Shown piece after piece: positions 27,420 to 41,242 of a DNA stretch of 64,000 nucleotides. The stretch is from Flagellimonas oceanensis (GTDB taxonomy: Bacteria > Bacteroidota > Bacteroidia > Flavobacteriales > Flavobacteriaceae): assembly GCF_003992595.1 (NCBI RefSeq), contig NZ_RZNA01000052.1, positions 1 to 64,000 on the forward strand, in the 5' to 3' direction. The notes below the pieces were generated by a model. The model was not told the origin of the DNA, ran no database searches, and saw only the letters and a list, made by a program, of their open reading frames with translations. The translations under genes were made by a program, and so were the position numbers. Positions within the stretch are counted from its first letter, which is position 1, and each line of letters begins with the position of its first letter.

Positions 27420-27896
27420 ATGAACTCATATGCTGAAAAATATCAGGGAATTCACCCGGGCCGGGTACTCAAGAGAGAGCTAAAAAAAAGGTCCCTTAAA
27501 CAACGTCCCTTCGCCATAGGGCTTGGGGAGCATCCGCAGACCCTCAATGCCATTATAAAGGGAAACCGTGACTTGAACACGGCATTGGCCCTTAAGATTG
27601 AGGATAAGCTGAAATTGCAGGAAGGTAGTTTGGTTCTTTTACAGGCATTTTACGACATTAAAAAAGAGAAGGATGGGATGCCTAGAAGGAAGCCTGATTT
27701 CTCGATTTTGCGTAAATCCCTGTTCTGGGATACGGATATCGAGAGCATCGATTGGGAAGGACGGTACAAAGCGGTCATCCGTCGTGTTCTCGAACGCGGT
27801 AATGTCCAGGAGAAAAAGGAAATCTCCCGGTTTTATGGTCCAAAAAAAGTTGCCGCTGTGGCCAACTCTTTGAAAGAAGCCCATACTTCATCTTAG
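27420..27896 (+). CDS. Antitoxin-like HTH protein with DUF6922-type tail (AbiE-pair partner)
   Basis: 158 residues. A HigA-like HTH at about 10-70 (IHPGRVLKRELKKRSLKQRP) and a C-terminal segment at about 93-145 (SLFWDTDIESIDWEGRYKAV, IRRVLERG) that resembles DUF6922-type domains. It sits 15 bp upstream of a nucleotidyltransferase toxin gene, the standard order for this toxin-antitoxin type. It probably binds its own promoter and neutralises the toxin. Confidence 0.75.
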   Translation: MNSYAEKYQGIHPGRVLKRELKKRSLKQRPFAIGLGEHPQTLNAIIKGNRDLNTALALKIEDKLKLQEGSLVLLQAFYDIKKEKDGMPRRKPDFSILRKSLFWDTDIESIDWEGRYKAVIRRVLERGNVQEKKEISRFYGPKKVAAVANSLKEAHTSS

Positions 27897-27911
27897 CGTT
27901 AATGCATCATA

Positions 27912-28559
27912 ATGCTATACTACAATACCGTAAATGATATACTTAAAGATAGCCTGGTCAAGTTGATGGGCGCAAATGAGTTTGAGGATTTTCGATTGGT
28001 GGGCGGAACTTCCCTTAGTCTGCAGGTGGGTCATCGGGAATCGGTGGATATTGACCTTTTTACCGATAGTCCTTATGGATCTATTGATTTTGGGGTTATC
28101 GATACCTATTTGGACAACGAATTTGCATATGTGGATGACATTCGGGAATTGTTTCCGGGAATGGGAAAATCTTATCTTATCGGTGTGGACAGGAACCAAG
28201 CCATCAAGTTGGATGTTTTTTACACCGACACCTTTATTGAACCCGTAAAGATTCAGGATGGGATTCGTATGGCCACCATTGAAGAAATCATTGCCATGAA
28301 ACTGGACGTAATCCAACGGGAAGGACGAAAAAAGGATTTTTGGGATCTTCACGGGCTACTTCCTGATTATGGAATCAGAAAAATGTTGGAGTTGCATAAA
28401 CAACGATATCCCTATGGTCACGAAAGGGATTTGATATTGAGAAATTTAATCAACTTTACAAGAGCCGATGATGATTTTGACCCAATTTGTTTACGAGGAA
28501 AGCACTGGGAATTTATCAAGGAAGATTTTGAGGAAGCTGCAAGCGCATTTGAAAGCTGA
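27912..28559 (+). CDS. AbiEii/AbiGii-family nucleotidyltransferase toxin
   Basis: 215 residues. The NTase signature is at residues 31-50 (GGTSLSLQVGHRESVDIDLF), giving the GG-S/T and D-x-D metal-binding residues, followed by DVFYTDTFIEPVKIQDGIRM and a KDFWDLHGLL motif typical of AbiEii. AbiE toxins act as nucleotidyltransferases (some modify tRNA) and mediate phage abortive infection or plasmid maintenance. Paired with the HTH antitoxin gene just upstream. Located among mobile-element relics, so it may be an addiction module left from the lost conjugative element. Confidence 0.85.
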   Translation: MLYYNTVNDILKDSLVKLMGANEFEDFRLVGGTSLSLQVGHRESVDIDLFTDSPYGSIDFGVIDTYLDNEFAYVDDIRELFPGMGKSYLIGVDRNQAIKLDVFYTDTFIEPVKIQDGIRMATIEEIIAMKLDVIQREGRKKDFWDLHGLLPDYGIRKMLELHKQRYPYGHERDLILRNLINFTRADDDFDPICLRGKHWEFIKEDFEEAASAFES

Positions 28560-29578: not shown

Positions 29579-30893
29579 ATGGCCACCGTCAAATTTCTTC
29601 TACAAAGCACGTCTGTCTACAAGTGCGCCAATATATTTGAGATTATCCCTAGGTAGAAATAATTCTGTAAAAAGGAAAACAGGTTTGATAATTGATTATG
29701 TCAATTGGAGTATTCAAACTGGTTTTCCCAAACAAAATAATGCTAGAAATAAGGTTACGCGTAATAGGTTAAAGAATCTAGAAACTTATGTTCTTGAACA
29801 AGTAAACGAAGCTCAATCTTGTGGGGAAATTATTGATGGTTACTGGTTAGAGAATCAGATCGATTTACATTTTAACCGAACTCCAATAAACAGTCTCTCA
29901 TATTTGATTGAATACGGAGAACATTTCCTGAAACAACTTAGGTATAAATCCGGAGGTGTGGATAAAAATGCAGTTAGTAGTGCAACCTTTAAAAAGTATC
30001 AAACCATTTTGAATAAAATCAAAGGTTTTGAAGAGTACAAGGGCCAAAAATATTTGGTTAAAAATGTTGATCTGGTCTTTCGAAATGAATTCATGGAATT
30101 TCTTGATAAGCAAGAAAGATTGAGTCGGAACACAATAGGACGATATTTAAAGTTTGTAAAAACAATTTGTCTTGATGCAAGCAAAAATGGGATTGAAATA
30201 AGTGAACAACTCAAACACTTTAAGGGTTTCACGGTTAAAGCGGATAAGATAACCTTATCTTTTGAAGAGCTCAGGGTTCTTGGAGAACTAAGGTTTTTAG
30301 AAAGGAAATATCAGATTGCCAGGGATTGGCTAATTATCGGTTGTTATACAGGCCAAAGAGTTTCCGATTTATTCAGGATGAAGAAAAGTTTTATTGAAAA
30401 AATTGAGGGCTTTGATTTTATTGTTTTAAATCAGGTTAAGACAGGTAAGCTTGTTCAGATTCCGTTGCATCCTGAGGTACAGAAAGTATTGAGTAAGTAT
30501 AAAGGGTTTTTTCCTCCTTTGTTTACAGATAATTTACAAAGTAGTGCTGCAATATTTAATAAGTTATTAAAGGAGATATGTAAAATCGCAGGGTTTAACC
30601 AATTAATTTCGGGTAGTTGTTATAATGCAGACTCTGGGAGAAAGGAAAATGGCACTTTTGCTAAATATAGTTTAATCTCTTCTCATGTGTGTAGACGTTC
30701 ATTTGCTACTAATTTTTATGGTGACCCCTATCATCCAACTCCTTTATTGATGAATATTACAGGACATTCAACAGAAAAAATGTTCTTGGAATACATCGGT
30801 AAAAAACCAATTGATTATAGTCTTCAATTGGCCCGGATATGGAAAGCAAGATTCAAAGAAAATGTCAACATGGATAATGCACAACAAGCTTAA
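29579..30893 (+). CDS. Tyrosine integrase of the tmRNA island (5' frameshift)
   Basis: From an in-frame TTG at 29637 the protein is 418 residues, with a SAM-like core-binding domain and catalytic residues R241 (TGQR), H350 and R353 (HVCRR), H377 (GHS) and Y386. All are present. The family N-terminus (MATVKFLLQSTS) is encoded from an ATG at 29579 in another frame. One extra base near 29615-29617 separates it from the APIYLRLSLGRN continuation. The gene therefore has either a disabling frameshift or translation from the internal TTG. Placement beside the att site marks it as the island's own integrase. Confidence 0.88.
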
Positions 30894-32948: not shown

Positions 32949-34511
32949 ATGTCCGAAGAACAAAAGAAACTGCTCGAAACGCAATTATGGAACATTGCCA
33001 ACGAGTTAAGAGGCAAAATGGATGCCGATGAGTTTAGAGATTACATACTAGGCTTTATTTTCTACAAATACCTTTCCGAAAAACAATATTTGTACGCAAA
33101 CACCTTGTTGGAAACCGAAGCAATAAAGGATTATATTTTGGTAACCGATGCAGGCGATTTGGATGCGATTAAAGAGGAGTCGCTTTTAAAGTTAGGCTAC
33201 TTTTTAAAACCCGAAGAACTTTTTAGTTCCATAGCAAAAAAGGGGAATGCCAATACCGAGAATGAAAGCAATTTCATACTAGCCGATTTGGAAAGCATTC
33301 TCAACAGTATTGAGCAAAGTACCATGGGTACGGAAAGTGAGGATGATTTCAATAAACTTTTTGAAGATTTAGACCTCAACAGCACCAAATTGGGGAGAAG
33401 TACCGAAGCCCGAAATAGCCTTATCTCCAAAGTACTGTTCCATTTGGATAAAATTGACTTTGCCTTGGAGGATGCCGAGGCCGATGTATTGGGTGATGCC
33501 TACGAGTATCTGATTTCTCAGTTTGCCAGTGGTGCGGGCAAAAAGGCGGGGGAGTTTTATACTCCTCAGCAAGTTTCCAAGATACTGGCCAAAATCGTGA
33601 CAACGGGCAAAAAACGCCTTAAAAGCGTGTATGATCCCACCTGTGGCTCCGGTTCGTTGCTCTTGCGTGTAAGTAGGGAAGTACCAGTGGATGATTTTTT
33701 TGGGCAGGAACTCAACCGAACCACCTACAATTTGGCTCGGATGAATATGATTTTGCACGATGTCCATTTTAGGCATTTTGATATTAGGCAAGAGGACACC
33801 TTGGAACAGCCTCAGCATTTGGATATGCGATTTGAGGCCATTGTGGCCAATCCACCTTTCTCGGCTAAATGGAAAGGGAAGAACAACCCATTGAATGAAA
33901 ACGATGAACGCTTTAGCCAATACGGGCGTTTAGCACCCACTAGTAAGGCCGATTTTGCCTTTGTGCAGCACATGCTCTACCAATTGGCAGAAAACGGCAC
34001 CATGGCCTGTGTATTGCCCCATGGTGTATTGTTCAGAGGAAGTGCCGAAGGCATGATTAGGGAATATCTCATTAAAGAACTCAATTATTTGGATGCCGTG
34101 ATAGGTTTGCCTTCCAATGTTTTTTACGGTACAAGCATCCCCACCTGTATTTTGGTATTGAGCAAATGCAGGGTAAATAGCGATAACATTTTGTTTATTG
34201 ACGCCTCACAAGGTTTTGAGAAGGATGGCAACAAAAATAAACTGGGAGAAGCCCATATTGATGCCATTATAGACACCTACCGAAACCGCATTGCAAAAGA
34301 TAAATTTAGCAACGTAGCCTCTTTGGATGAGATAACAGAAAACGATTACAACCTCAATATCCCCCGTTATGTGGATACTTTTGAAGAAGAGGAGCCTGTG
34401 GATTTGAACCAAGTTACCACCGACTTACAGACCTTGGAAAAAGAAATAGGCGAAACTGATGCTACCATAGCCGATTTTTGTCAACAGTTAAACATTAAAA
34501 CACCGTTTTGA
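32949..34511 (+). CDS. hsdM: Type I restriction-modification DNA methyltransferase subunit
   Basis: 520 residues. An N-terminal HsdM helical domain (about 8-150), then an N6-adenine methyltransferase domain with the SAM-binding DPTCGSGSLLL at about 229 and the catalytic NPPF at about 301. A C-terminal helical region binds HsdS. It methylates adenine in the target set by HsdS, protecting host DNA. The HsdS ATG follows its TGA by one base, so they are translated together. Full length. Confidence 0.96.
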   Translation: MSEEQKKLLETQLWNIANELRGKMDADEFRDYILGFIFYKYLSEKQYLYANTLLETEAIKDYILVTDAGDLDAIKEESLLKLGYFLKPEELFSSIAKKGNANTENESNFILADLESILNSIEQSTMGTESEDDFNKLFEDLDLNSTKLGRSTEARNSLISKVLFHLDKIDFALEDAEADVLGDAYEYLISQFASGAGKKAGEFYTPQQVSKILAKIVTTGKKRLKSVYDPTCGSGSLLLRVSREVPVDDFFGQELNRTTYNLARMNMILHDVHFRHFDIRQEDTLEQPQHLDMRFEAIVANPPFSAKWKGKNNPLNENDERFSQYGRLAPTSKADFAFVQHMLYQLAENGTMACVLPHGVLFRGSAEGMIREYLIKELNYLDAVIGLPSNVFYGTSIPTCILVLSKCRVNSDNILFIDASQGFEKDGNKNKLGEAHIDAIIDTYRNRIAKDKFSNVASLDEITENDYNLNIPRYVDTFEEEEPVDLNQVTTDLQTLEKEIGETDATIADFCQQLNIKTPF

Positions 34512-34512
34512 G

Positions 34513-35676
34513 ATGAAAAAAAACGGACAAATTCCCGAATTAAGGTTTAAAGAATTTAACAATCCATGGAAATTGGAGTTGCTTGAAAATATTGCAAAGC
34601 GAGGTTCTGGACATACTCCAAATAAAAAACATAAGAATTATTACAATGGTGATATTAAATGGGTGTCGTTGGCTGATTCCAAATATTTAGATGATGGATT
34701 TATTAACGAAACTACTTATCAAATTTCAGAAGAAGGAATAAGAAATTCTTCTGCTGTATTACACGATAAAGGTAGTGTTTTGCTATCAAGAGATGCAGGG
34801 ATAGGTAAAAGTGCCGTAATGAAATCTAAAATGGCAGTTAGCCAACATTTTATTGTTTGGAAACCTCATAAGGATAAACTTGATAATTGGTTTTTGTATT
34901 ATATCTTGCAAATTTATAAGCCTGAATTTGAAAGAATTGCAATTGGCAGTACAATTAAAACGATAGGCCTCCCCTATTTCAAGAAACTTAAAATTAAAGT
35001 GCCAGAGTTAGAGGAGCAGCAAAAAATAGCCTCTTTCCTTTCAGCAGTAGATATAAAAATAGCCCAATTACAGCGAAAGAAAGAGTTGTTGGAAGAATAC
35101 AAAAAAGGGGTAATGCAGCAAATCTTTTCCCGACAATTGCGGTTTACCAAAGAAGATGGGGGTGCTTACCCTGATTGGGAAGAGAAACGGTTGGGTGAGG
35201 TTGCAAAAAAAGAATCATCTAGTATTTCTGCGAATAAAATCGAGGACAATTTCGGGAATTATAAAATTTATGGAGCAACGGGTCTTATCAAATGCATTGA
35301 TTTTTATGAAGTAGGAGAAGACTATATTTCAATTGTAAAGGATGGTGCGGGAGTCGGTAGAACTCTTTTATGTGAAGCTGAATCTTCTGTTTTGGGGACT
35401 TTAGATATAATCAAACCCCAAAAGGATGCAAACCTATATTTTCTTTATTCATTGTTGAATAATCTCAATTTCACAAAGTATATCACTGGTAGCACCATTC
35501 CTCATATTTATTTTAAGGATTATTCAAAGGCAAGAATAAAAATTCCTTGCATTGAAGAACAAACCCAAATCTCCCATTTTTTAAGTGCCATTGATAAAAA
35601 AATAGAAGTGGTGCAAAGCCAAATAAAGCATACCCAGAATTTTAAGAAGGGGTTGTTGCAGCAGATGTTTGTTTAG
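34513..35676 (+). CDS. hsdS: Type I restriction-modification specificity subunit
   Basis: 387 residues with two target-recognition domains at about 8-180 and 205-370. Each is followed by a matching helical repeat: EEQQKIASFLSAVDIKIAQL near 175 and EEQTQISHFLSAIDKKIEVV near 350. These repeats hold the two TRDs apart and dock HsdM. The TRDs are more AT-rich than hsdM, as usual for exchanged specificity modules. Full length, so the target is probably bipartite. Confidence 0.95.
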   Translation: MKKNGQIPELRFKEFNNPWKLELLENIAKRGSGHTPNKKHKNYYNGDIKWVSLADSKYLDDGFINETTYQISEEGIRNSSAVLHDKGSVLLSRDAGIGKSAVMKSKMAVSQHFIVWKPHKDKLDNWFLYYILQIYKPEFERIAIGSTIKTIGLPYFKKLKIKVPELEEQQKIASFLSAVDIKIAQLQRKKELLEEYKKGVMQQIFSRQLRFTKEDGGAYPDWEEKRLGEVAKKESSSISANKIEDNFGNYKIYGATGLIKCIDFYEVGEDYISIVKDGAGVGRTLLCEAESSVLGTLDIIKPQKDANLYFLYSLLNNLNFTKYITGSTIPHIYFKDYSKARIKIPCIEEQTQISHFLSAIDKKIEVVQSQIKHTQNFKKGLLQQMFV

Positions 35677-35749
35677 AATTTAAATTGGAAGACATATATA
35701 AAATGTTAAAAAAGGTAATAAATTGTTCGAAAAGTTGTTATTTTGCAGT

Positions 35750-35835
35750 AACAGTACACACCACGCTACATCATAAGAACAGCGTCCCAGGGTGTGTCTT
35801 TTGCTTTATGGGCTTTAGTTTTATTCCCTTAAAAC
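35750..35835 (+). ncRNA. AbiF-type structured RNA upstream of the Abi_2 gene
   Basis: The 168-bp gap between hsdS and the Abi gene holds a compact two-stem structure. ACACACC (35756-35762) pairs with GGTGTGT (35791-35797). Directly inside it ACGCT (35763-35767) pairs with AGCGT (35781-35785), with a 13-nt loop and CCCAG left as a 3' internal bulge. A conserved-looking pyrimidine-rich tail with GGG/CCC pairing (about 35810-35828) follows, ending just before the ATG at 35845. Structured RNAs in this position are a known companion of Abi_2/AbiF genes. Ends are estimated. Confidence 0.72.
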
Positions 35836-35844
35836 TTAAATTGA

Positions 35845-36756
35845 ATGTTTAAAAAGCCCGCATTTACCAAAGAACAACAATTACAACAATTAAAGGATAG
35901 GGGACTTCACTTTTCCAATGATGCCATTGCGTTAAAGTATTTGTCGCATATCAGTTATTACCGTTTAGGGGAATATTGGTATGTGATGCAAGAAGATAAA
36001 GAAAATCATACATTTAAGGCTGGCAGTAAATTTGATGATGTCGTTGCCCTTTACAATTTCGATGCAGAGCTAAGATTACTATTATTTGGGGTGATTGAAA
36101 AAATTGAAATCAGTCTTCGTACCAAATTAATATATCACCTTTCCCATGAATACGACCCATGGTGGTTTCAGAATTTTGAACTTTTTTCAGACAGCAGGGC
36201 TTTAGTAAAGACCTTATTCAATCTTGAGGAGGAAATCAGTAGGACAAAAGACAAATCGATAAAAAACCACTTTAAAAGACACACGGACGATTTGAGATTC
36301 CCCCCATCATGGAAATCACTTGAGCATACCAGTTTTGGTTCATTGTCCAAGCTATACGGTAATTTGAAAAACACCATAAAATCAAAGGACACCATTGCTG
36401 ATGAGTTTGGGGCTGTAAATCATACTTATTTGCCAAGTTGGCTGCAATCCATAGCACAAATACGCAATTTTTGTGCGCACCATTCGAGACTCTGGAATCG
36501 TAATCTACCCGGCACGGTAAAGCTATTGCCTAAACCTCCGAACCCGTGGATTGGGGATGTAAACAATGTGCCAAAGCAGCATGAGTTTTCAAAGCTATAT
36601 GTGCATTTGTGCCTAATGAAATATTTATTGGATACCATTCAGCCCAAAAATAATTTTGGAGAAAAATTAGTTGAGTTATTCACTAAATTTCCAAATGTTG
36701 ATCCTGATGCACTTGGAATGAAACCTGATTGGAAACAAGAACCCCTTTGGAAATAA
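35845..36756 (+). CDS. abiF: Abi_2/AbiF (AbiD-like) HEPN abortive-infection protein
   Basis: 303 residues. Conserved Abi_2 features include an N-terminal LSHISYYRLGEYWYVM segment, LYNFDAELRLLLFGVIEKIE, LRTKLIYHLSHEYDPWWF, and a HEPN RNase motif RxxxxH as RNFCAH at residues 207-212 (QIRNFCAHHSRLWNR). HEPN proteins of this group are RNA-cutting toxins controlled by a cognate RNA. It stands between hsdS and hsdR; only one base separates its TAA from the hsdR ATG, so it is translationally coupled to restriction. A structured RNA lies directly upstream. Confidence 0.9.
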   Translation: MFKKPAFTKEQQLQQLKDRGLHFSNDAIALKYLSHISYYRLGEYWYVMQEDKENHTFKAGSKFDDVVALYNFDAELRLLLFGVIEKIEISLRTKLIYHLSHEYDPWWFQNFELFSDSRALVKTLFNLEEEISRTKDKSIKNHFKRHTDDLRFPPSWKSLEHTSFGSLSKLYGNLKNTIKSKDTIADEFGAVNHTYLPSWLQSIAQIRNFCAHHSRLWNRNLPGTVKLLPKPPNPWIGDVNNVPKQHEFSKLYVHLCLMKYLLDTIQPKNNFGEKLVELFTKFPNVDPDALGMKPDWKQEPLWK

Positions 36757-36757
36757 T

Positions 36758-39592
36758 ATGACCACCCAACCCGAATACATTTTAGAAGAAAACCTAGTTG
36801 AACAGCTACAGGACTTAGGGTACGAAAAAGTCATCATTAAAGATGAAGATCAACTCGTTGCCAACTTAAAGGGTCAGTTGGAAAAACACAACCGGACCAC
36901 CTTTTCGGATGCAGAGTTTAAGCAAATATTAAATCAGCTCTCCAAGGGTAACATTTATGAAAAGGCCAAAACCCTCCGTGACCGAATTACCTACCCCAAA
37001 GACAATGGGGAAACGGGTTATGTAGAGTTGATTAACCAAGTGCATTGGTGCAAAAACCAATACCAAGTTACCCACCAAGTAACTATGGAAGGCTCTTACA
37101 AAAACCGTTATGATGTTACTATTCTCATCAATGGGTTGCCCTTGGTGCAAATCGAGCTTAAAAAAAGAGGCTTGGAGATGAAAGAAGCCTTCAACCAAAT
37201 CAACCGTTACGAGAGGCATTCATTTAGTTCGGGAAGTGGTTTGTTTCAATATGTGCAGCTCTTTGTAATCAGCAATGGCGTAAACACAAAGTATTTTGCA
37301 AACAACCCTGTAAAAGCACGGTCATTCAAACAGACTTTCTTTTGGGCGGATAAGGAGAATAACATCATCACGCAATTGAGCGATTTTGCCACAGCGTTTC
37401 TAGAGCCTTGCCATCTCTCTAAAATGATAACCAAATACATCGTACTGAACACGGCCAATATTTTAATGGTTTTGCGCCCATATCAGTACTATGCCACGGA
37501 AGCCATCGTGGAGCGTGTGAAAAACAGCAATAAGTTTGGTTATATATGGCATACCACGGGATCGGGGAAAACATTGACCTCCTTTAAAGCTGCCCAAATA
37601 TTAACCAATTTGGAAGATGTGTATAAGGTGGTTTTTGTGGTAGACCGCAAGGATTTAGATTACCAAACTATCAAGGAGTTCAATAGCTTTAGTGAGGGCA
37701 GTATTGATGCTACGACCAATACAAGTACTTTGGTGAAACAGCTCTCCGATGATACCAAACTCATAGTAACAACAATACAAAAGCTTAACACCGCCATCTC
37801 GAAGCCCAAGCATATGGCTAAAGTGGATGAACTAAAAAACGAGCGGATTGTTTTTATTTTTGATGAATGCCACCGCAGTCAGTTTGGTGATACCCACAAT
37901 GCTATCAAAACTTATTTTGGCAATGCCCAAATGTTTGGCTTTACGGGTACTCCAATCTTTGCCGATAATTCAGTGAAGAATAAGTTGGGTAGACGAACCA
38001 CTAAAGATTTGTTTGATGAGTGTTTGCATAAATACGTAATTACCGATGCCATAAGAGATAGGAACGTATTGAAGTTTTCCATTGAGTATATGAACACCGT
38101 AAAGCTAAAAGAGGAGGTTGTTGATATTAAGGTGGAGGATATTAATACCGCTGAGGTATTGGAGGCTCCTGAGCGTTTGGAGAACAACGTTGATTTTATA
38201 ATCGATAATCACAACCGTAAAACCCATAATAAGCGTTATACAGCCATTTTTTGCGTTCAGAATGTAAAGACTCTTATAAAGTATTATGAGCTGTTCCAAG
38301 CCAAAAAAGAAGCCGGAGAACACGATTTAAAAGTAGCGACTATCTATTCTTACCACGCCAATCAATTGGACGAGGATGCCCAAGGCTTTATCCCCGACGA
38401 AGATTATGAGGATTTTGCCGCAGAACCTTCTTCACAATACGATACAAAGCATACAAGGGACAAATTGGAAGAGTTTATTGGAAACTATAACCAAATGTTT
38501 AAAACTAATTATTCCACTAATGAGTTTTATTCATACTACAAGGATATTGGCAAGCGTGTAAAAAACAAACAGGTGGATATTTTACTGGTGGTTAACATGT
38601 TCTTGACTGGTTTTGACAGTAAACTTCTCAATACGATTTACGTCGATAAAAACTTAAAGTATCACGGTTTGATTCAGGCTTATTCACGTACCAACAGAAT
38701 ATTGGACGAGGTTAAGTCCCAGGGAAATGTTGTGGCTTTCAGGAATCTAAAAGAGGCTACTGATGAGGCGATAACCCTATTTTCCAATAAGGAAGCCATT
38801 GAAGAAATCATAGTACAACCCTACGAGGATTACATTGAAAAGTTTGATGAAGCAGTTGAACGTGTAAAGGATATTGCACCAACCTTTGATAGTGTAAACG
38901 ATTTAGTTTCCGAAGCAGAAGAACTGGAATTTGTAAAGGCCTTTAGGGAGTTGATGCGTGTTAAAAATGTGCTTAGCACATTCACTGAATTCAGTTTTGA
39001 GGATTTGGGCATGGATGAGCAAACCTTTGAAAACTATAAAAGCAAGTACTTAGATTTATATGATACCATTAAATTGGAGATTCAAAAGGAGAAAGTGTCT
39101 ATACTGAATGACATTGATTTTGAATTGGAACTAATTAGAAGGGATGAAATAAATGTCACTTATATCTTGACTCTGTTGGCCAAACTTCACGATTCTGAGC
39201 CAAGGGAGAAAGAAGAACAGCGAAGAGTAATTTCAGATATTTTATCATCAGAAACTCAATTAAGAAGTAAAAAAGAATTGATTGAGAAGTTTATAGAGGA
39301 AAATTTACCAATGATTACTGACTCCGAATTGGTGCCCAATGCGTTTGAATCTTTTTGGACAGTAGAGAAGAAAAAGGCTATACTAAAAATATCAGAAGAA
39401 GAAAATTTGGATTACCAAAAGTTGGTTGATTTGGTGAGTAATTACTTGTTCACTGAAAAAGAACCATTAAGGGATGAGACTATTGCCGTAATGAAAAAAA
39501 GGCCTAGTTTAAGAGATAGAGCGACCTCAGCAACAAGGATTTTAAGCAAGATAAAAGGCTTTGTAGAAACTTTTATTGATGGTATGGGGTAG
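36758..39592 (+). CDS. hsdR: Type I restriction endonuclease/translocase subunit
   Basis: 944 residues. An N-terminal PD-(D/E)xK nuclease domain (NRYDVTILINGLPLVQIELK at about 120), the Walker A motif HTTGSGKT at about 265-272, DECH box at about 368 (FDECHRSQFGD), the helicase motif FTGTP soon after, and the motif VI-like region HGLIQAYSRTNRILD near 640. A C-terminal helical part contacts HsdM. It cuts DNA lacking the HsdM/S methylation. Full length; no inactivating lesion seen. Confidence 0.95.
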   Translation: MTTQPEYILEENLVEQLQDLGYEKVIIKDEDQLVANLKGQLEKHNRTTFSDAEFKQILNQLSKGNIYEKAKTLRDRITYPKDNGETGYVELINQVHWCKNQYQVTHQVTMEGSYKNRYDVTILINGLPLVQIELKKRGLEMKEAFNQINRYERHSFSSGSGLFQYVQLFVISNGVNTKYFANNPVKARSFKQTFFWADKENNIITQLSDFATAFLEPCHLSKMITKYIVLNTANILMVLRPYQYYATEAIVERVKNSNKFGYIWHTTGSGKTLTSFKAAQILTNLEDVYKVVFVVDRKDLDYQTIKEFNSFSEGSIDATTNTSTLVKQLSDDTKLIVTTIQKLNTAISKPKHMAKVDELKNERIVFIFDECHRSQFGDTHNAIKTYFGNAQMFGFTGTPIFADNSVKNKLGRRTTKDLFDECLHKYVITDAIRDRNVLKFSIEYMNTVKLKEEVVDIKVEDINTAEVLEAPERLENNVDFIIDNHNRKTHNKRYTAIFCVQNVKTLIKYYELFQAKKEAGEHDLKVATIYSYHANQLDEDAQGFIPDEDYEDFAAEPSSQYDTKHTRDKLEEFIGNYNQMFKTNYSTNEFYSYYKDIGKRVKNKQVDILLVVNMFLTGFDSKLLNTIYVDKNLKYHGLIQAYSRTNRILDEVKSQGNVVAFRNLKEATDEAITLFSNKEAIEEIIVQPYEDYIEKFDEAVERVKDIAPTFDSVNDLVSEAEELEFVKAFRELMRVKNVLSTFTEFSFEDLGMDEQTFENYKSKYLDLYDTIKLEIQKEKVSILNDIDFELELIRRDEINVTYILTLLAKLHDSEPREKEEQRRVISDILSSETQLRSKKELIEKFIEENLPMITDSELVPNAFESFWTVEKKKAILKISEEENLDYQKLVDLVSNYLFTEKEPLRDETIAVMKKRPSLRDRATSATRILSKIKGFVETFIDGMG

Positions 39593-39629: not shown

Positions 39630-40694
39630 TTGGGGTTATATAAAAAAGTTATTTGGATTGTTGGTCTAGCAATTATTTTGATAATTGGTTTTGTCACCTT
39701 CAAGGCGATATACGAGAATCCAAATTGGGAGTGGTTTAATTTAGATTTTACTAAAAGGACTGACTTGATTACTTCTTATGGCACCTTAATTGGTGGTCTT
39801 TTGGCATTTCTCTCAACACTTGTCGTTGCCTATGGTTTGGTTGATCAAAATGAGAAATTATTAATTTCAAAAAATGAAGAAAGACAAAGAGAGATAATTG
39901 GTTACCGTGATAATTTGATTCTTTTAAGTAGTTTTTTGACTTCAATCATAGACAATATCCAAAATCAAGGAAAGACTCTAAATAAATTTATTCAAAGTGA
40001 GCTTAAAAACCCTACACTAGCCAACGTCACTGGTTTTTCAGTTAATAAGAATTTTGAACGTATAATTGAAATGGACTATTCAATGATATATAAGTCCATT
40101 AGGCATTTTATGCATGATCAACAGGAATGGGAGAAAGAATTTCTCAATATGTATTCTGTGTTGGATTTCTACAAGGAAATAATCCCTCATATAATGGTTA
40201 ATTACCAATCACAACAGGCAGAGAAAACACAACGTAAAAATGAAATTAGTGATTTGGTTAATGATTTTTTATTCAACCTGTCAGAGGTCAGAAATGAAAT
40301 TATAGTCCATTCTAGTGAAGTGGAAAGAAGAAAGAATCAATGGTTTAAGGTTATTGATGAATTTCATTCAAATTACCAATTATACATAGAAGAAATGAAG
40401 AAGGGTCGGGATAAAGAATCTGATTTGTCACTTCTAAGGAATGAGTACTTTTTACCATTCCATGAAAATCTCGTTAAAATTAAAAAAGGCAACTGGCCTG
40501 AAAAATTTAATGAATCAACTTTAATCGATGTTGTAGGTGCCCTAAGCATTAAGATACAAGAATTAGAAGGTTTTTCTAGAAACTATATCTTAAACTTGAA
40601 AGATACTTATAAAAATTACTTGTACCCGTCAAGTGAAAATCTGGTTAAATTAAAACGATTAAAATCAAAAATAGATCGATCAATATCTGTTTGA
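39630..40694 (+). CDS. Two-helix membrane protein, candidate abortive-infection effector
   Basis: 354 residues from a TTG at 39630; an ATG at 39602 is out of frame by one base across a T-run. Two N-terminal membrane helices (VIWIVGLAIILIIGFVTF at about 7-24, LIGGLLAFLSTLVVAYGLV at about 53-72) flank a short periplasmic loop. A long coiled-coil-rich cytoplasmic domain with many Glu/Lys and Asn follows. The layout resembles the putative phage abortive infection membrane family. It is the last gene before attR, and strongly AT-rich. Function inferred from layout and context only. Confidence 0.6.
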   Translation: MGLYKKVIWIVGLAIILIIGFVTFKAIYENPNWEWFNLDFTKRTDLITSYGTLIGGLLAFLSTLVVAYGLVDQNEKLLISKNEERQREIIGYRDNLILLSSFLTSIIDNIQNQGKTLNKFIQSELKNPTLANVTGFSVNKNFERIIEMDYSMIYKSIRHFMHDQQEWEKEFLNMYSVLDFYKEIIPHIMVNYQSQQAEKTQRKNEISDLVNDFLFNLSEVRNEIIVHSSEVERRKNQWFKVIDEFHSNYQLYIEEMKKGRDKESDLSLLRNEYFLPFHENLVKIKKGNWPEKFNESTLIDVVGALSIKIQELEGFSRNYILNLKDTYKNYLYPSSENLVKLKRLKSKIDRSISV

Positions 40695-40839: not shown

Positions 40840-40844
40840 ATCTT

Positions 40845-40859
40845 GTGGAGCCGGAGGGA
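40845..40859. repeat. Island attachment site, right copy (tmRNA 3' end)
   Basis: GTGGAGCCGGAGGGA, identical to 29364-29378. On the minus strand it forms the acceptor-stem and T-arm end of tmRNA (TCCCTCCGGCTCCAC). Integration at this copy preserves an intact tmRNA. Confidence 0.82.
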
Positions 40860-41242
40860 TTCGAACCCTCGTCCAAACAAGCAATAACCATGCTTTCTAC
40901 ATGCTTAGTATCTGCTTGGTTTTCGATGCATGCCTGACCAGATACGGCCTAACATACACTTATCTTCTTTAGGTTTTAGAGGTGCCGCCAAAGCGAGCGG
41001 ACACCCTTGTGTTGACTTTTTTGGTGCTCCTAAACGAATCGCCGTCAACAAGGGCTATTCAGGAACATCTCGCTTCCCTACCTTGTAGGGACGAGGCATA
41101 TCTTACTATAATTCAGATTATGCGGCAAGAGCGTAATTATTTTCGCCAATTAAAAGTGTGAAACATGAGATTTACGAGCTGTATCCCAGCGCTCGGCATG
41201 CTTACATCGCCATTGGTCTTGCTGTCAAAACCGGTCGGCCCC
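40846..41242 (-). ncRNA. ssrA: Transfer-messenger RNA
   Basis: On the minus strand the 5' end GGGGCCG (41242 to 41236) pairs with CGGCTCC before the discriminator A at 40846, forming the acceptor stem with one G-U. The T-arm sequence GGTTCGAATCCC lies next to the 3' end. The coding part at 41118-41147 reads GGC GAA AAT AAT TAC GCT CTT GCC GCA then TAA, giving the degradation tag GENNYALAA. tmRNA rescues stalled ribosomes and tags the nascent chain for proteolysis. CCA is not fully encoded. Confidence 0.96.

Follow-up and report, generated by a model that had tools for sequence, protein, structure and literature searches.

A structured RNA and an AbiF-type HEPN gene inside a type I restriction–modification operon of Flagellimonas oceanensis, and toxin-less copies of the RNA in viral contigs

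The AbiF module and its operon

We analysed a 64,000-nucleotide stretch of Flagellimonas oceanensis contig NZ_RZNA01000052.1 (hereafter the window), in which a type I restriction–modification (RM) operon holds a small structured RNA and an AbiF-type gene between hsdS and hsdR (Table 1). The initial annotation had placed the module there with a one-base spacing to hsdR, and ORF coordinates as well as Pfam and PADLOC assignments agree: the abi stop is followed by one base and then the hsdR start (36758), and a 168-base gap runs from the hsdS end (35676) to the abi start (35845). The RNA had been said to fill this gap; it does lie within it, but occupies only ~60 of the 168 bases. Both claimed stems are present at those letters, i.e., an outer stem pairing ACACACC (35756-35762) with GGTGTGT (35791-35797) and an inner stem pairing ACGCT (35763-35767) with AGCGT (35781-35785), with CCCAG (35786-35790) forming the bulge on the 3' side. 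The RNA thus sits directly 5' of the toxin gene on the same strand, the position and strand of type III toxin-antitoxin systems. Its 52-nt core folded with a z-score of -2.95 (3 of 200 shuffles were as good); the fold of the whole 168-nt gap was unremarkable (z -0.66, 45 of 200). In 74 of 80 sequences, the 20 nt preceding the RNA contain TAnnTTTG, which we take to be the Bacteroidota -7 promoter consensus; the window, with a one-base variant, belongs to the six lacking an exact match, and the RNA probably has its own, predicted promoter. By analogy with the system studied in C. difficile (PMC12373285), the U-rich tail that follows the hairpin may serve as a terminator.

Table 1. Features of the RM operon in the window, and viral stretches in which the RNA adjoins tRNA-Thr(UGU)
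Feature	Position	Strand	Evidence
hsdM, type I modification methylase	32949..34511	+	Pfam N6_Mtase 1.2e-110, HsdM_N 2.7e-18; PADLOC MTase_I
hsdS, type I specificity subunit	34513..35676	+	Pfam Methylase_S 5.5e-44; PADLOC Specificity_I
Candidate promoter -7 element of the small RNA (TTATTTTG)	35738..35745	+	One mismatch to TAnnTTTG
AbiF-associated antitoxin-like RNA (model R1)	35749..35808	+	R1 84.6 bits (the window is one of R1's building sequences); conservation and covariation
Hairpin: outer 7-bp stem, inner 5-bp stem, 5-nt bulge	35756..35797	+	Sequence, pair counts, fold
U-rich tail (CUUUUGCUUU); may act as attenuator/terminator between RNA and toxin gene	35798..35807	+	Conserved in alignment
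abiF/abiD-type HEPN toxin gene (predicted), 303 aa	35845..36756	+	Pfam Abi_2, PADLOC AbiD, PDB 8vz6
Codons of RNFCAH (R207-H212), HEPN catalytic motif	36463..36480	+	Invariant residues in relatives; PbAbiF alignment
hsdR, type I restriction subunit	36758..39592	+	Pfam HSDR_N, SWI2_SNF2, T1R_D3-like, EcoR124_C (C terminus)
RNA + tRNA-Thr(UGU) stretches	L092 9643-9774; L098 6346-6476; L111 3841-3967; L112 2015-2141		

The abi product matched Pfam Abi_2 (3.2e-55; 187.7 bits against a curated cut-off of 25.6) and PADLOC AbiD (245 bits), and PbAbiF (PDB 8vz6; Zilberzwige-Tal et al. 2025) aligned over residues 2-303, i.e., nearly the full length (E 1.2e-52), with the catalytic R210/H215 of PbAbiF lining up with R207/H212 of the window protein. 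The R210/H215 double mutant of PbAbiF is inactive (PMC12373285), and R207, N208, C210, A211, and H212 were invariant in 16 sequences (the window plus 15 relatives, 75-95% identical, chosen for the comparison). Judged from these matches, the ORF is an AbiF/AbiD-type HEPN protein carrying RNFCAH, as initially annotated, with predicted toxic RNase activity; the kinship of the AbiF family to Cas13 that had been claimed alongside is likewise described in PMC12165695, and AbiF has been proposed as a Cas13 ancestor. The closest named relative, also from Flagellimonas, is 95% identical, and the whole genome holds one Abi_2 match. Pfam returned Abi_2 only on this protein, and an ABC ATPase domain of the PrrC type was not found.

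Several further features accompany the operon. A 354-aa ORF directly 3' of hsdR (39630-40694), possibly a further operon member, had no match in Pfam or PADLOC, and a tmRNA gene lies on the minus strand just after the operon (40843-41242). An integrase is encoded at 29637-30893; the end of the tmRNA gene was considered as the att site of an integrated element and rejected, as no second copy of that end was found in the window. At 27420-28559, an HTH-like gene (labelled by eye) and an AbiEii-like nucleotidyltransferase (PADLOC 26.9 bits) possibly form a second toxin-antitoxin pair.

The RNA and its settings among bacterial relatives

A scan of genome contigs yielded 99 relatives of the module, of which the best 80 were kept, and L065, which lacks a full 5' end, was left out of RNA counts. 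The RNA was found upstream of abi in 79/79 relatives with upstream DNA and in the window, 28-106 bases before the abi start codon; the search pattern was written from those same upstream sequences, so 79/79 is a description and not a blind test. At L080 the abi frame is split and the RNA is present. Across 58 distinct RNA sequences, 99.3% of pair cells were standard, one A-U pair changed to U-A or U-G in 10 sequences and another pair to G-C in 22, and double-changed cells numbered 32 against 10.1 in shuffles, a value that 0 of 500 shuffles reached. Slid structures scored at most 0.023 against 0.140 for the proposed one. Of the 12 pairs, eight are constant and just two vary on both sides, a count not above that in shuffles (440/500). 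The compensatory changes support the structured, covarying RNA of the initial annotation, and the lack of covariance support that it had named as a counter-indication was looked for and not encountered.

In the window's genome, R1 at E <= 0.001 gave a single match (35749-35808). Among 395 genomes of the host's order, R1 was present in 10 and Abi_2 in 21, and by coordinates the RNA lay just 5' of Abi_2 in eight of the 10 R1-bearing genomes, a check that is not fully blind given that G000 is the window and some others may already be in R1. An R1 match at E <= 0.001 was present in ten of the 19 over-cut-off Abi_2 loci of the order, including two that stricter filters had passed over; the remaining nine, all with lower Abi_2 scores, gave no R1 match at that threshold. 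In genome G095, where no Abi_2 match was found, the RNA (80 bits) lies in an hsd operon between a toxin-antitoxin-like pair (by-eye label) and hsdR, and in G400, also without an Abi_2 match, two weaker R1 copies (46 and 35 bits) share a 3.7-kb contig. An hsd operon with the AbiF RNA and without abi was seen at L141 (6912-13306), and L142, a contig without Abi_2, has two AbiF-RNA-like copies ~220 bases apart (1719-2053), of which the first overlaps a PIN-like gene (by-eye label) at its end.

The covariance-model check suggested at the outset, with the Rfam AbiF RNA family RF03085, came back negative: there was no match on 35500-36900 even at E <= 10 (gathering score 37). RF03085 resembles the window RNA in topology, a hairpin with an asymmetric 3'-side bulge, and in lying 5' of abiF genes (PMC12373285), and it occurs in phages as well; sequence and stem lengths differ. 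It matched the phage record of L088 at the R1 place with 26.7 bits, below the cut-off, and gave no match on five other R1-bearing viral records, so that L088 may offer a weak bridge between the two RNA families. Since RF03085 does not match at the window, homology between the two RNAs is argued from shape, position, and this one weak bridge, and R1 describes an RNA family that goes unrecognised in the window by Rfam release 15.

The RM setting recurs. At least 33 of the 80 loci have HsdR (the type I label being a phmmer match to the window's HsdR and, with several loci incomplete, a lower bound); in 29 it follows abi directly, with an abi-hsdR gap of 0-20 bases in 22 of them. With HsdM, HsdS, and HsdR all assigned at the window, the placement of AbiF inside a type I RM operon put forward by the initial annotation is well founded, and Abi2/AbiF was listed as embedded in R-M operons already in 2013 (PMC3710099). 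Another 13 loci have a type IIG-like enzyme, seven of these with a pAgo-like gene as well (pAgo occurs in eight of 80 overall), and 34 have neither type I nor type IIG, a count that includes L036, which has pAgo and an ApeA-like gene and no type IIG match. L013 has a CBASS cyclase. Near-identical DNA precedes abi in different genera at L022 (1375-9047) and its kin (L023, L026, L028, L050, L056, L073), loci that combine a type IIG-like enzyme, RNA-AbiF, and a pAgo-like gene, with an ApeA-like HEPN protein in L022 and L056. On an abi tree of 79 rows (type I label on 34, the window among them; L065 and L080 left out; quick method, SH-aLRT only), the type I label needed 10 changes against 25.7 when shuffled, at least four of them forced by strong branches; therefore, the type I RM tie appears old in places and gained or lost repeatedly. 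Because RNA-abi also stands beside type IIG enzymes or neither kind, it seems a portable unit with RM operons as carriers, riding in more than one kind of RM locus.

Copies of the RNA in phages

Pattern scans and R1 together located the RNA on 23 IMG/VR viral contigs (38.5-90.8 bits), which by flank comparison represent 13 lineages, plus a second, differing copy on L110's contig. They carry the antitoxin-like RNA without the toxin, as a phage antitoxin mimic would: Abi_2 was found in 0/23 whole viral records, which may all be fragments and do not prove its absence from the phages, and in 0/9 named phages chosen for study (below). A pattern-seeded scan of viral contigs for the AbiF protein likewise gave no close relative. 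Among 15 distinct phage RNAs, 99.4% of cells retain the stems; double-changed cells numbered 11, against 3.0 shuffled (0/500), and three pairs changed on both sides (reached by 20/500 shuffles). Having been fitted to the model, this alignment is biased in its favour; a chance row (L097 3241-3281, 15.4 bits) was excluded. Bulge and 5' AGUAC are kept in most phage RNAs, the divergent copies being those of L096 (38.5 bits) and L106 (38.7 bits). L109, matched by a 21-base 3' piece only and without an R1 match, was dropped.

Of 20 chosen proteins from these contigs compared with PHROG, 11 matched families of named function, five matched families of unknown function only, and four had no match. The named functions comprised large terminase (L089, L090, L097, L111), tape measure (L088), DNA polymerase (L112), ribonucleotide reductase (L099), helicase (L095), endolysin and sugar epimerase (L108), and head protease (L100). 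L092, L094, L096, L098, and L106 are viral by IMG/VR classing alone, and L101-L105, L107, and L110 are kin of L100 and L108, the PHROG scan having covered the other contigs. The L111 terminase matched 110 phage records, 88 of them Flavobacterium, Cellulophaga, Tenacibaculum, Azobacteroides, or Maribacter phages and 22 uncultured or unnamed; best matches for L089 and L090 were Bacteroides, Parabacteroides, and Flavobacterium phages within mixed wider lists, and the host signal of L100 and L112 was ambiguous. Blastn with the 59-nt window RNA against INPHARED phages and PLSDB plasmids gave no match, the L100 variant gave only one chance-level match among named phages (E 2), and R1 was not found in six named phages that a marker gene links to the viral contigs. 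With no blastn counterpart among named phages, the R1 phage copies are those of IMG/VR contigs.

In 13 of the 23 contigs (L092, L098, L100-L105, L107, L108, L110-L112), tRNA genes share the examined stretch with the RNA. The RNA match begins at the end of tRNA-Thr(UGU) in four contigs that make up three lineages by flanks (L092, L098, L111, L112), and tRNA-Val follows immediately 3' of the RNA in L098; the recurrence of tRNA-Thr(UGU) could hint at the toxin's target. In the L100 group, Rfam gave no tRNA before the RNA, and only T-arm-like sequence was seen there by eye. TAnnTTTG is found upstream of the RNA in L088, L090, and L095. The differing copies on one contig (L153 1839-1897 and L110 1563-1620) lie ~15 kb apart, each near tRNA genes, that of L153 starting where an interrupted tRNA of 156 bases ends (Rfam tRNA, 40.6 bits); these two AbiF RNAs might answer two AbiF variants.

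RF03085 RNAs occur in named phages. The lytic cyanophage S-CREM1, for which an RF03085 abiF sRNA is listed in PMC9964418 and no decoy role is proposed in the accessible text of that paper, carries a 52.2-bit match between tRNA-Asn and tRNA-Gly. Like the R1 phage copies, it stands without Abi_2 and, as many of them do, by tRNA genes; host phylum and RNA family differ. Blastn with the S-CREM1 stretch returned 52 phage records, 46 of them at E > 0.01. RF03085 scored over its cut-off in eight of nine phages chosen from cyanophages, T7-like Aeromonas phages, mycobacteriophages, and a Salicola phage (S-CREM1, S-SZBM1, S-SRM01, Wanda, Redno2, T7-Ah, PZL-Ah8, and CGphi29) and below it in Pasto (30.3 bits), a proportion that is no prevalence because the records were chosen by similarity. 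In all three cyanophages the RNA precedes a tRNA gene (Gly, Ala, Arg), stopping 4-5 bases short of it, whereas the R1 copies come after a tRNA. The T7-like Aeromonas phages have the RNA between connector and scaffold genes, and the match in Wanda, a Mycobacterium phage, overlaps the start of an annotated gene.

Function of the module and of the phage copies

A close counterpart is AbiFCd/RCd22 of C. difficile, which shares with the window an Abi_2 HEPN toxin with an RNxCAH motif and a structured RNA at its 5' side, the RNA being promoter-driven and followed by a terminator, elements whose window equivalents are putative (PMC12373285). RCd22 neutralises AbiFCd in cis and in trans and needs its stems; it differs in having two RF03085 motifs within a prophage lysis module, as against one bulged, RF03085-negative hairpin in a type I RM operon here (PMC12373285). 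PbAbiF/AbiFr, compared with the window at the protein level, forms an RNA-protein complex with one RNA per monomer and inhibitory nucleotides in the bulge (PMC12373285, PMC12737573). Tandem repeats in the antitoxin RNA are described as a key feature of type III toxin-antitoxin systems (PMC12373285), and none were found upstream of abi; a single motif is present, and the RNA-AbiF unit would work like type III but is not filed as a member.

Our preferred reading, held with considerable confidence, is a two-part RNA-AbiF toxin-antitoxin unit carried as accessory cargo in a type I RM operon, with the toxin-less phage RNAs probably serving as decoys. The RNA is most likely, by comparison with studied relatives, an antitoxin that keeps AbiF off. 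As in those relatives, it would be made in excess, its bulged hairpin would bind the AbiF dimer and block the R207/H212 active site, and read-through past the U-rich tail would make toxin; phage infection would upset the RNA supply, and freed AbiF would cut RNA and stop growth. As cargo between hsdS and hsdR, the unit would gain from the RM operon help in spreading and perhaps in expression. A stem-loop acting as nothing but an attenuator or terminator of abi would account for the U-rich tail and for the second terminator-like hairpin that follows in some loci (L032, L035, L039; by eye), but we regard it as very improbable: conservation of bulge and flank seems to exceed a terminator's need, RCd22 has its trans activity, and stand-alone phage copies exist.

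How far the RM operon matters functionally is judged against PrrC, a HEPN RNase whose gene likewise lies inside a type Ic RM operon (PMC2610378, PMC3710099), so that the position of abi in an hsd operon is a feature in common with PrrC-type RM-linked anticodon nucleases. EcoprrI keeps PrrC silent, and T4 Stp activates it (PMC2610378). Similarly, the RM complex, perhaps together with the RNA, could hold AbiF inactive until a phage block of restriction unleashes it, and AbiF might then act as a second defence layer triggered by failed restriction, as the initial annotation had conjectured. The EcoR124_C end of HsdR here, the recurrence and tight spacing of HsdR after abi, and the clustering of type I context on the abi tree are in keeping with such a guard. 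We nevertheless think it unlikely: up to 47 of the 80 loci (13 type IIG, 34 neither, several loci incomplete) have RNA-abi without type I HsdR, contact of AbiF with RM proteins is not known, and PrrC, which contains an ABC ATPase domain, is kept silent by the RM protein, with RNA antitoxin not mentioned in the available portions of the two papers, whereas the window protein has Abi_2 only. It is reasonably probable, instead, that the hsdS-hsdR slot simply takes accessory genes and that AbiF has no functional tie to restriction, given a PD-(D/E)XK protein in the slot of L008, a toxin-antitoxin-like pair (by-eye label) with the RNA and no abi in that of L141, a second Abi gene in L034, and Abi_2 neighbourhoods generally rich in defence and mobile genes (PMC12373285); the recurrent, clustered association and tight hsdR spacing may, on the other hand, reflect shared expression.

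On the phage side, the distribution of the RNA suggests decoys that disarm AbiF defence. Phages of several lineages would carry the RNA without the toxin as a probable decoy antitoxin; copies adjoining tRNA genes would be freed from the shared transcripts by tRNA maturation, and those of L088, L090, and L095 would be made from the host-type promoter. We consider it fairly likely that Bacteroidota phages and, independently, cyanophages, T7-like Aeromonas phages, and mycobacteriophages carry AbiF RNA decoys, commonly in tRNA operons, and that such mimicry is widespread. That the copies serve the phage otherwise, as terminators, tRNA-operon processing elements, or remnants of lost AbiF modules, appears rather doubtful. 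In its favour, transcription could be terminated by a hairpin with a U-rich tail, the copies of L096 and L106 diverge, the Wanda match overlaps a gene start, and the S-CREM1 sRNA was listed without a decoy role; yet both stems are kept with compensatory changes, as are bulge and 5' flank in most copies, the genomic places are diverse, the bacterial RNA is tied to Abi_2 in eight of 10 genomes, and viral contigs gave no close abi relative. A precedent is pseudo-ToxI of PhiTE, a phage-encoded mimic of a bacterial RNA antitoxin, by which the toxin is suppressed; ToxIN belongs to another toxin family, and pseudo-ToxI was expanded in escape mutants, in contrast to AbiF RNAs on natural phage contigs, often by tRNAs (PMC5449768).

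The bacterial module adds a new RNA to a known kind of system, and the surprise is the phage side: the literature searched, which did not take in the Cell 2025 AbiF paper, holds no statement of a decoy role for phage-borne abiF RNAs and no account of how phages answer AbiF. If the decoy reading is true, antitoxin mimicry would be a widespread natural counter-defence against a Cas13-ancestor family and not a rare laboratory escape. The conserved RNA accompanies its toxin in bacteria and stands by itself among tRNA genes in phages, which makes the phage answer to AbiF directly testable. Phage tRNAs are known to blunt tRNA-cutting defences (PMC11555353), and the decoy reading would offer phage tRNA arrays a function beyond codon supply. 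A report of 2000, known by its title as cited in PMC12737573, described protection of phage 712 against AbiF by a region of lactococcal phage sk1; RF03085 gave no match in Lactococcus phages sk1 and 712, so this RNA family does not explain that protection. Rfam tRNA matches number two in sk1 (L166 27505-27717) and one in 712 (L167 29388-29458), a difference that possibly bears on the old report.
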